Assembly: GCA_017433295.1 (NCBI GenBank)
Contig: JAFRHL010000034.1
Coordinates: 62,001 to 126,000, forward strand
Origin: Eubacterium sp.
GTDB lineage: Bacteria; Bacillota; Clostridia; Lachnospirales; Lachnospiraceae
Length of the DNA stretch: 64,000 nucleotides
Direction: 5' to 3'
In this document: positions 12,520-14,798 of the stretch, piece after piece
Numbering within the stretch: position 1 is the stretch's first letter
How the letters are laid out: every line of letters begins with the position of its first letter
Made by a program: the position numbers and the translations under genes
Notes under the pieces: model-generated
Databases searched by the model: none
Seen by the model: the letters and a program-made list of their open reading frames with translations, nothing else
What the model was told of the DNA's origin: nothing

Positions 12520-12548
12520 TTGCCGAATTAAAAGAAAAATTGTATAAT
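12520..12548 (+). promoter_or_regulatory. Promoter of the hsdS-like/hsdM-like operon
   Basis: TTGCCG (12520-12525), 17-nt spacer, TATAAT (12543-12548). Predicted start near 12555 would give a leader of about 265 nt containing a terminator-like hairpin and GC-rich tandem repeats. Confidence 0.65.
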
Positions 12549-12568
12549 GAACGCATAGCGACGAGCGC

Positions 12569-12630
12569 AACCCGGAAGGAAAACCGGCAGCTGACTGCTC
12601 GCAGGCAGCTGCCGGTTTTTGCTCCGGGTT
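12569..12630 (+). promoter_or_regulatory. Nested leader hairpin with terminator-like core
   Basis: The inner stem AACCGGCAGCTG (12582-12593) pairs perfectly over 12 bp with CAGCTGCCGGTT (12606-12617), and a run of five T (12616-12620) follows, as in an intrinsic terminator. An outer stem AACCCGG (12569-12575) with CCGGGTT (12624-12630) encloses it. Placed between a promoter and the first gene, it could act as an attenuator for the hsdS-like/hsdM-like operon. Confidence 0.6.
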
Positions 12631-12672
12631 ATGTGAGTGCAACGAACACGGAGGATTCGAAGAATCCGACGT

Positions 12673-12777
12673 GAACGCGAGGAGCGAGGCGCGCGCACGA
12701 GGCGGGAGAACGCGAGGAGCGAGGCGCGCGCACGAGGCGGGAGAACGCGAGGAGCGAGGCGCACGCACGGGGCGAAA
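12673..12777 (+). repeat. Three 35-bp GC-rich tandem repeats
   Basis: Units at 12673-12707, 12708-12742 and 12743-12777. The first two are identical, beginning GAACGCGAGGAGCGAGGCGC and ending CGAGGCGGGA; the third carries a few changes at its 3' end. They lie in the leader, 42 nt before the GTG start of the hsdS-like gene. A frame is open through them but encodes only Arg/Ala/Glu-rich low-complexity sequence, so I do not regard them as coding. There are no unique spacers, so this is not a CRISPR array. Confidence 0.9.
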
Positions 12778-12818: not shown

Positions 12819-13412
12819 GTGGAACTGCAATTGGATCAGATCAGCCGCATCACCCATGGTGTGGTGCTGAATCGAATAAAACCCAAAGTGCAGAGCGATG
12901 GAGTAGAGTATCCTATACTGTCTATCAGCCAGCTTCTGGATGAAGAAAGCGGCATCAGGGATTCGGAGGTTTCCACTGTTTTTGTGGACCGGAAAAAGAT
13001 CCGCAACCTGAATCTGGCCAAAGAGCACAGTATTGTCATCGGCCTTACCTCCTTCCACAGGGCTGCCGTTTTGGGCAAGCAGCATGTGGGAAAGATCATT
13101 CCGTCCAATTTTGTTTCCATTGAGTTTCTGGATGGAATTATGGATCCCTATTATTTTGCCTGGTATTTTAATGAGCATCCTGAGATAAGAAACCAGAGGC
13201 TGATTGCCATACAGGGCAACTCATCGGTCAAGGTATTATCCATACATATGATCAGGCAGCTGCCCATTGAGTGTCCCGATCTTTCGACCCAGATGTCCAT
13301 TGGGAAGCTGTATTATTATCAGAAGAGGAAGGAACTGCTTCTTAATGAGAAGCTAAAGCTTGAGAATGATGTGCTGTCGGAAGAACTGATGCGCTATCTG
13401 AAGAAGCTGTAA
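12819..13412 (+). CDS. HsdS-like DNA specificity protein, half size
   Basis: 197 aa from a GTG preceded by GAAGGAGG. The sequence looks like one target-recognition half of a type I restriction specificity subunit: an N-terminal region (LDQISRITHGVVLNR), a central segment (FVSIEFLDGIMDPYYFAWYFN, QGNSSVKVLSIHMIRQLPI) and a C-terminal coiled-coil (QMSIGKLYYYQKRKELLLNEKLKLEND) like the conserved HsdS helices. Normal HsdS has about 400 aa and two such halves, so this one would need to dimerise. The HsdM-like gene starts 15 nt downstream; no HsdR gene is nearby. Native DNA target and function unknown. Confidence 0.75.
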   Translation: MELQLDQISRITHGVVLNRIKPKVQSDGVEYPILSISQLLDEESGIRDSEVSTVFVDRKKIRNLNLAKEHSIVIGLTSFHRAAVLGKQHVGKIIPSNFVSIEFLDGIMDPYYFAWYFNEHPEIRNQRLIAIQGNSSVKVLSIHMIRQLPIECPDLSTQMSIGKLYYYQKRKELLLNEKLKLENDVLSEELMRYLKKL

Positions 13413-13427
13413 GGAAGGTACATAAGG

Positions 13428-14798
13428 ATGGATAACCAACAATTAAATTATGAGTTTATGTCAATTATAAGCGAAAGCCATCCCGGATTGACCTTTGAGG
13501 AATACAGAGACAGCTGTGTATTCCTGCTTTTTTATCATTATTTATGTATCAGGTATGACAGGGATCTGGAGGATCAGTATAAGCTCAACGCCATGGTCCG
13601 GATGGCCATCCGGGGCAAGCTGCAGCTGCCCTCCTTTCTGCGGTTTATAGAACAGGCTTCTTCCTTTATTCATCTGGCAGGCAGCCAGGTGCAGCTTACG
13701 GATCTTACATTTTACAGGAAACTGATGAATGTTCACCAGCTGGAAAAGCAGAAGAGTTTTGCCCGTTTTTTTCGTAAGCTGATCAAAAAGATTGATGCAT
13801 GGAACTGTGACGATCTTCTGTATCCCTCCTACGGGGATTACTTTGAGAGACTTTTGTCTGAATTTGCCAGAACAAAAAAGGAATCTTTCGTATCAGAAGA
13901 GATGATCAGGCTATACGCCCTTTTATACCATAACAGCGGCACTTCCATAAAGAAAGTCTTTCTTCCGGATTTCAGGTATGGAATCCTTTTGAAATCCATG
14001 TTGGATTTCAGTCCCGATTCCGAGATTTTCGGCTATGAAGAATCTGAAACATTTTCCGAGATCCTCAGGATCCTCTGTTATATGAAGAGTATTCCCGATG
14101 AATCTATTCACCTTTACAGTAAGGCACAGTGGATGGAGGTGATGGATTACCAGGGCTATTTTGACGCGGTCAGCATTTTTTCGCCCGAGGGGTCAGAACC
14201 TGGCAACTATATATCCGACGTACCGGACTGGCACCCGGTTTATCAGTTTATGAATTCCGGGACAAAAGGGGAATTTCCCATGATCCTTTCGGCCCTTCCC
14301 CTCCTGTCTGAGACGGGAGTCATGGCGGTGGTGGTTCCCAGCGCCCTGCTGTACCGGGAAGGAAAGGAGTCGCAGATCCGCCGTTACCTGGTGGAGGAGG
14401 CCCGGTGTCTGGAGCTTGTAATGCTCCTGCCGGATCAGATCTTCCATTCCACCGGGCAGAACGAAGTCCTTCTCTTTTTTAAAAAACAGCGCAGCAGTGA
14501 TGATATTATGTTCTTTGACTGCTCCGAGCTGGAGGATTTTTCGGAAGAAAAGCTTGAGATGATCAGGCAGTCCTGGGAAAAAAGGGAAACGGTCACGGGC
14601 TTTTGTGCCTCGGCCGGCATGGACCTGATCAGAAAGAATGATTATAATCTGAACCTGCCCCGTTATGTTACTAAATTGATGAAGCTTACAGAGGTTGACT
14701 TAAAGCTTAAGCTGGACAGAATTGCGGAGATTGACAAGGAACTTCTGGAGATAGATCACAAGATAGCCATGTACAAGCGGGATCTGGAGCTGAATTAA
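13428..14798 (+). CDS. HsdM-like protein with degenerate methyltransferase motifs
   Basis: 456 aa. The frame resembles type I N6-adenine methylase subunits: N-terminal helical domain (SHPGLTFEEYRDSCVFLLFYHYLCIRY), then a Rossmann-like region and the family's C-terminal stretch (LLSETGVMAVVVPSALLYRE, LVMLLPDQIFHSTGQNEVLLFF). Both catalytic signatures are lost: where HsdM has the SAM-binding DPxCGSGG, this has VFLPDFRYG (177-185), and where it has NPPF/Y it has FSPE (251-254). A C-terminal coiled coil (VDLKLKLDRIAEIDKELLEIDHK) could pair with the HsdS-like helices. I infer a DNA-binding complex that no longer methylates. It lies among housekeeping genes, not in a defence island. Confidence 0.7.
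   Translation: MDNQQLNYEFMSIISESHPGLTFEEYRDSCVFLLFYHYLCIRYDRDLEDQYKLNAMVRMAIRGKLQLPSFLRFIEQASSFIHLAGSQVQLTDLTFYRKLMNVHQLEKQKSFARFFRKLIKKIDAWNCDDLLYPSYGDYFERLLSEFARTKKESFVSEEMIRLYALLYHNSGTSIKKVFLPDFRYGILLKSMLDFSPDSEIFGYEESETFSEILRILCYMKSIPDESIHLYSKAQWMEVMDYQGYFDAVSIFSPEGSEPGNYISDVPDWHPVYQFMNSGTKGEFPMILSALPLLSETGVMAVVVPSALLYREGKESQIRRYLVEEARCLELVMLLPDQIFHSTGQNEVLLFFKKQRSSDDIMFFDCSELEDFSEEKLEMIRQSWEKRETVTGFCASAGMDLIRKNDYNLNLPRYVTKLMKLTEVDLKLKLDRIAEIDKELLEIDHKIAMYKRDLELN

Follow-up and report, generated by a model that had tools for sequence, protein, structure and literature searches.

A core HsdS_short-HsdM pair of Anaerobutyricum with a methylase subunit lacking its catalytic motifs: a possible DNA-binding complex derived from a type I restriction-modification system

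Four-gene hsdRSMS type I systems have been described in Staphylococcus xylosus TMW 2.1324, in which the small subunit HsdS_short (191 aa) is conserved between strains with different motifs, is required for proper methylation, and is toxic if expressed alone in E. coli (PMC10030836). That study considers HsdS_short unlikely to recognize the target (PMC10030836, section 4). In the sequence of the S. xylosus locus the genes are ordered R, S_short, M, S_long.

We analyzed a 64,000-nucleotide stretch of contig JAFRHL010000034.1, hereafter the window, in which a first-pass annotation had pointed to an HsdS-like/HsdM-like gene pair with a dead methyltransferase and no HsdR, proposed as an undescribed DNA-binding system. 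Both open reading frames (S and M) were confirmed at the positions given in Table 1, separated by a gap of 15 nt.

Table 1. Features of the S-M locus in the window.
Feature	Position	Strand	Remarks
Promoter of the S-M pair, TTGCCG-17-TATAAT	12520..12548	+	pattern before S in 12/16 genus loci
S	12819..13412	+	197 aa, GTG start, HsdS_short family, half-size specificity subunit
M	13428..14798	+	456 aa, HsdM-fold protein without catalytic motifs
Former SAM motif I, now VFLPDFRYG (M aa 177-185)	13956..13982	+	D, G, S in 0/19 genus orthologs
Former NPPY motif IV, now FSPE (M aa 251-254)	14178..14189	+	N in 0/19 genus orthologs
C-terminal HsdM stretch NDYNLNLPRY (M aa 404-413), retained	14637..14666	+	7 residues in 19/19 genus orthologs

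A profile of the S proteins of the genus matches the HsdS_short of S. xylosus at E 9.2e-19, as well as half-S genes of other Firmicutes, whereas the HsdS_long proteins of S. xylosus and Aeribacillus are reached only at E 0.16 and 0.34. Profile-profile comparison (hhalign) gave a probability of 99.8% for HsdS_short versus 1.6% for HsdS_long, which rules out a truncated ordinary HsdS, and we place S in the HsdS_short family known from four-gene hsdRSMS type I systems. One member of that family, the S_short of Aeribacillus composti (gene order R, S_short, M, S_long), is 34-37% identical to the S of the window. Searches against Pfam, as the first-pass annotation had proposed for both proteins, gave a weak match of S to Methylase_S (E 0.039, 14.6 bits, below the 22-bit cut-off), a model reached at E 1 by 8 of the 17 S orthologs, and the type I specificity models of PADLOC match S at E 9.6e-9. 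Within the genus, identity amounts to 87% in the recognition-like part (aa 1-150) and 79% in the C-terminal part. The structure model of S (pLDDT 60.9) is too weak to support a claim on its fold; in it a long helix comes after an alpha-beta part, the layout expected for a half-S. Start codons of S in the 16 genus loci are GTG (13), TTG (2) and ATG (1).

M matches Pfam N6_Mtase at E 3.6e-29, above the cut-off of the model, and the NCBIfam hsdM model with 87 bits, under its cut-off of 242.75 bits; it also matches the sequences of solved HsdM structures (E down to 7.8e-21) and aligns over its whole length with the intact HsdM of hsdRSMS systems in hhalign (99.9% over 439 columns). Comparison of the predicted structure, with Foldseek matches re-examined by VIA-align 2, indicates that the full HsdM fold is kept. 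In the alignment to solved HsdM sequences, VFLPDFRYG falls on the SAM motif and FSPE on NPPY, as had been read at first pass. Scored against a reference of 19 HsdM proteins with intact motifs, none of the 19 genus orthologs of M retains the D, G or S of motif I or the N of motif IV, and GEFxTP is mostly lost (its P is present in 4/19); the P and second G of motif I and the second P of NPPY are retained in all 19. The C-terminal signature noticed by the annotation is also kept (N404, N407, L408, N409, P411, R412 and Y413). A search for intact SAM or NPPY motifs elsewhere in M, which the annotation had named along with a linked hsdR and poor conservation in related genomes as evidence against its reading, found none, and M is judged to have lost catalysis.

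Conservation of M across the genus is 67% in the N-domain, 39% in the catalytic part, 55% in the distal core and 63% at the C-terminus. Among the 19 intact HsdM proteins, conservation is lowest in the N-terminal domain (34%) and reaches 54% in the catalytic part. Since overall divergence is not the same in the two sets, the comparison extends only to the ranking of the domains; this ranking is inverted in the genus M, with the N-domain kept best and the catalytic part worst. Selection on M and S thus retains those parts that serve complex assembly and DNA contact in type I enzymes, with the chemistry released.

The pair is core in Anaerobutyricum, and the selection on it that the first-pass annotation had suggested is supported. 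M was detected in 22 of 24 same-genus genomes, including that of the window (19 full length and three cut by contig ends), and S in 20/24, with S present in all 11 good genomes (completeness >=90%, contamination <=5%); the genomes with no S or M match are 70 to 84% complete. None of the 22 M and 20 S matches has an internal stop. The alignments used for these comparisons comprised 19/22 M matches (A1) and 17/20 S matches (A2), with partial copies at contig ends excluded. Median dN/dS values (NG86) were 0.041 for Pnp, 0.042 for S, 0.057 for FolD, 0.083 for TepA, 0.097 for RimO, 0.129 for FtsK and 0.141 for M, values that are rough because dS is near saturation and that come only from pairs with dS <3 (S 46/120, M 27/120, Pnp 18/28, FtsK 18/45). 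By these estimates both S and M are under purifying selection across the genus.

Beyond the genus, two further Lachnospiraceae MAGs carry an S that is 54-58% identical and lies beside a divergent M. In one (L081) the order is dtd-S-M-tepA-ftsK and M is much more divergent (23% identity); in the other (L082) the contig ends within M. Matches to the S profile were found in 6/299 family genomes at E 1e-5 and in 10/397 at E 1e-10, own genus included in both, and in 1/295 order genomes, the one being the genome of the window; outside the genus, the matches with loci examined are type I or stand-alone loci. The pair had no match in phages, and of 69 pattern matches in viral contigs none was confirmed, so a phage origin was rejected.

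Gene order was compared in 16 loci, namely the window and 15 other genus genomes. Downstream of M in the window are a TepA-like gene of ClpP fold (Pfam CLP_protease, E 7.6e-18) and an FtsK-like gene; neighboring genes were presumptively named pnp, ftsK, folD, rimO and dtd from their sequences. In the comparison of gene order proposed at first pass, S and M are adjacent with ftsK downstream in 16/16 loci, pnp is the nearest listed upstream gene in 9/16, and tepA is present in 12/16, S-M staying in the four loci that lack it. The gene after M is SBP-like, tepA or ftsK in most relatives, and in one (L050) an unrelated gene on the reverse strand. The order pnp ... tepA-ftsK is ordinary in Firmicutes, so the neighbors say little about the function of the pair. 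A gene of 225-265 aa resembling a solute-binding lipoprotein lies between M and tepA/ftsK in 10/16 loci (L049, L051, L052, L054, L056 and L059-L063), the window not being among them; the two that were tested, from L054 and L063, belong to Pfam SBP_bac_3.

A promoter pattern, TTGCC[GT]-17-TATA[AC]T, precedes S in 12 of the 16 genus loci and is missing in four. The exact TTGCCG/TATAAT pair occurs before S in 9/16 loci, compared with 5/13 for the best pair at seven neighboring genes (folD), several of which may have no promoter of their own. Searching 10 genus genomes for the pattern returned 12 matches, six before S and six elsewhere, and three for a reversed control pattern; a plain promoter scan of the region did not rise above shuffles (6 found, shuffle mean 4.6). 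Such a dedicated conserved promoter is compatible with a fixed expression level or with self-control, and proves neither. We found no genus-wide palindromic site near the promoter: GTTAT-N8-ATAAC is present in only 5/16 loci, which by eye are the more similar ones. A search of the S leader for known RNA elements was likewise negative. The leader of the window has features of its own between promoter and S, namely a long-stem hairpin at 12549-12640 (z -6.7 on folding) and a GC-rich 35-bp tandem repeat of 2.9 copies at 12673-12774; the first 139 bases of 12549-12774 have a 73% identical copy at one other site of the genome, and in the other 11 loci with the promoter its distance to S is only 59-102 nt.

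The absence of a restriction subunit noted at first pass was also borne out, with no hsdR linked to S-M in the 16 genus loci, no HsdS_long adjoining M at the window locus, and no match to HsdR_N (PF04313) in the genome of the window, which is 91.3% complete. HsdR_N was found in 10/24 genus genomes and in 7/11 good ones, and the pair is equally present in its absence (4/11 good genomes, own included). The genome of the window contains further N6_Mtase genes. Outside the window, it also has a single 612-aa frame (G000:C3:4240-5808) in which an HsdS-like match comes after an N6_Mtase match, so that M and S appear to be fused in one protein.

We sorted into types 31 HsdS_short loci that belong neither to the genus nor to the two sister MAGs. 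These comprised 23 stretches with an open frame of at most 245 aa and E no higher than about 2e-14, 5 + 1 hits of the family-genome scans, and L085 and L092, weaker short hits being excluded. Twenty-four are of complete type, having either an M with its motifs or R and S_long next to the pair. All of these but L168, where the contig ends, show HsdR sequence (23/24); L174 is broken into frames, L045 has only a fragment of R, and the stretch read at L048 contains no M. The M proteins of 19 complete-type loci entered the tree, the motif scoring and the domain comparison (L046, L161, L174, L198 and L048 were left out); among them, L164 and L165 have NMPF at motif IV instead of NPP[YF], as does the left-out L174, and were counted as intact because N and F are kept. 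In four loci (L047, L170, L171 and L173) the dead M after HsdS_short is itself followed by one or two additional M genes with intact motifs; such dead M proteins may function within active type I systems. The remaining three (L044, L156 and L167) have HsdS_short and a dead M alone in 11-17 kb.

With dead pairs also at these seven loci, loss of catalysis with the pair kept is a recurrent or an old outcome. The M sequences of the dead pairs are far apart, and the M tree, in which long branches meet, places the genus and L081 apart from the other dead M; the dead M proteins may have died independently or go back to one loss. Of the first-pass reading, the dead state, the selection and the missing hsdR stand, but the system is not of undescribed origin: S belongs to the HsdS_short family, M matches the HsdM of hsdRSMS systems, and dead counterparts exist elsewhere. 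Two of the stand-alone loci lie near recombinase genes, L044 near one of resolvase type (Pfam) and L167 near a similar gene (by eye). At L167 (L167:2027-10573) the pair comes directly after genes for an OLD-TOPRIM ATPase, a UvrD helicase and a 676-aa protein with no Pfam match; the ATPase and helicase resemble a Gabija-like pair.

The explanation that we favor, and hold as a whole to be reasonably probable, is a domesticated HsdS_short-HsdM pair that does not methylate and binds one fixed DNA site. That S-M is a re-used type I module seems very probable; that its working activity is sequence-specific DNA binding we hold to be reasonably probable. By its sequences, the pair comes from a type I restriction-modification system of the hsdRSMS type and has lost HsdR, HsdS_long and catalysis. 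S and M would assemble into a complex whose composition is probably S2M2, judging from half-S enzymes like NgoAV; through the clamp of M and the recognition-like part of S, which hardly varies, it would bind one fixed, probably symmetric DNA site. The complex would then stay there as a non-methylating clamp that blocks or marks the site. Its output, the least certain part, could be control of transcription, perhaps of its own conserved promoter, or the marking of chromosomal sites. Counting against this explanation are the four loci with no promoter, the null palindrome scan and the weak model of S; in addition, the adjacency of S and M is no proof of a complex. The judgement, made for S. xylosus, that HsdS_short is an unlikely target reader (PMC10030836) counts against the reading of a DNA site.

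That judgement would suit a different arrangement, in which S mainly contacts a protein partner while M serves as a dead scaffold, tied for example to FtsK, TepA or the nucleoid, with no DNA site of its own. S is conserved over most of its length, like a protein-binding surface (blocks of aa 1-175 are 79-92% conserved in the genus), and ftsK is always downstream; however, the pair persists where tepA is absent, and both proteins retain the parts that hold DNA and each other in type I enzymes, so that we regard this arrangement as unlikely. Less likely again is an accessory acting in trans, as regulatory partner or decoy subunit, on other type I/II methylases or restriction enzymes. Proper methylation in S. 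xylosus does need HsdS_short (PMC10030836), four loci carry an additional intact M alongside HsdS_short and a dead M, and other N6_Mtase genes exist in the genome of the window, but the pair is far more constant than type I systems and does not follow HsdR_N.

The surroundings of L044 and L167 raise the idea that dead HsdS_short-HsdM pairs carried by mobile elements gave rise to a module that defends against phages or plasmids or senses them. We consider this improbable for Anaerobutyricum, where the pair belongs to the core, keeps its synteny and equals pnp in conservation, unlike typical defense genes, and has neither a phage match nor a confirmed match in viral contigs. An M that is still an active methyltransferase with unusual motifs could point to its fully retained HsdM fold and to the few motif residues that remain; the uniform loss of the key residues, with the catalytic region as the least conserved part of M, makes this very improbable. 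The reading to which we give the least weight of all is a decaying type I remnant: the missing HsdR and HsdS_long and the diverged catalytic core would be expected of one, and it is rejected by the open frames and the low dN/dS of both genes.

Anaerobutyricum species are gut bacteria noted for producing butyrate. If the favored explanation, a domesticated DNA-binding pair, is true, a restriction-modification enzyme can lose its chemistry and yet be retained as a core component of the cell. More broadly, and only tentatively, type I methylases may have become, on one occasion at least and perhaps on several, catalytically dead DNA-binding complexes of fixed specificity. The one in Anaerobutyricum would then regulate or mark sites as a core chromosomal component under a conserved promoter of its own, and the related dead pairs, alone or in type I operons, may form a wider unrecognized class. 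The pair offers a clean model for the role of HsdS_short, a recently described subunit, in a setting free of HsdR and HsdS_long; as S is nearly invariant across the genus, a binding result from one culturable species would probably hold for all. Profile-based annotation would label M a DNA methylase, given its N6_Mtase match above cut-off, and mislead methylome work. Among the matches listed by a search of the open-access literature, with few subscription journals and preprints, none was a paper on dead HsdM pairs or on Anaerobutyricum methylation. The family is already known; its dead state with neither HsdR nor HsdS_long, as a core locus of a genus, appears in none of the papers listed.

Compared with known systems, the locus is most readily set beside the hsdRSMS of S. 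xylosus, with which it shares an HsdS_short of about 190-197 aa directly before HsdM, the same two families, and a conserved recognition-like part of S (PMC10030836). It differs in having no HsdR or HsdS_long, in an M stripped of catalytic motifs, and in being a chromosomal core locus, whereas the S. xylosus system lies on a plasmid or mobile element (PMC10030836). The seven dead-pair loci, whether alone or in type I operons, likewise have HsdS_short directly before an HsdM-like protein whose motifs are lost, but L044 and L167 lie near recombinase genes, unlike the pair of the window, and the M sequences of the dead pairs are far apart. NgoAV also has a half-size S, expected by analogy to act as a homodimer on a symmetric site, but it is active and its S is a truncated ordinary HsdS, which the S of the window is not (PMC3874165). 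Finally, the PacII M1M2S structures (7vru, 7vs4) share the HsdM fold with M and, by their entry titles, contain two different M subunits, a possible model for the loci with a dead and an intact M, whereas the window locus has a single M.
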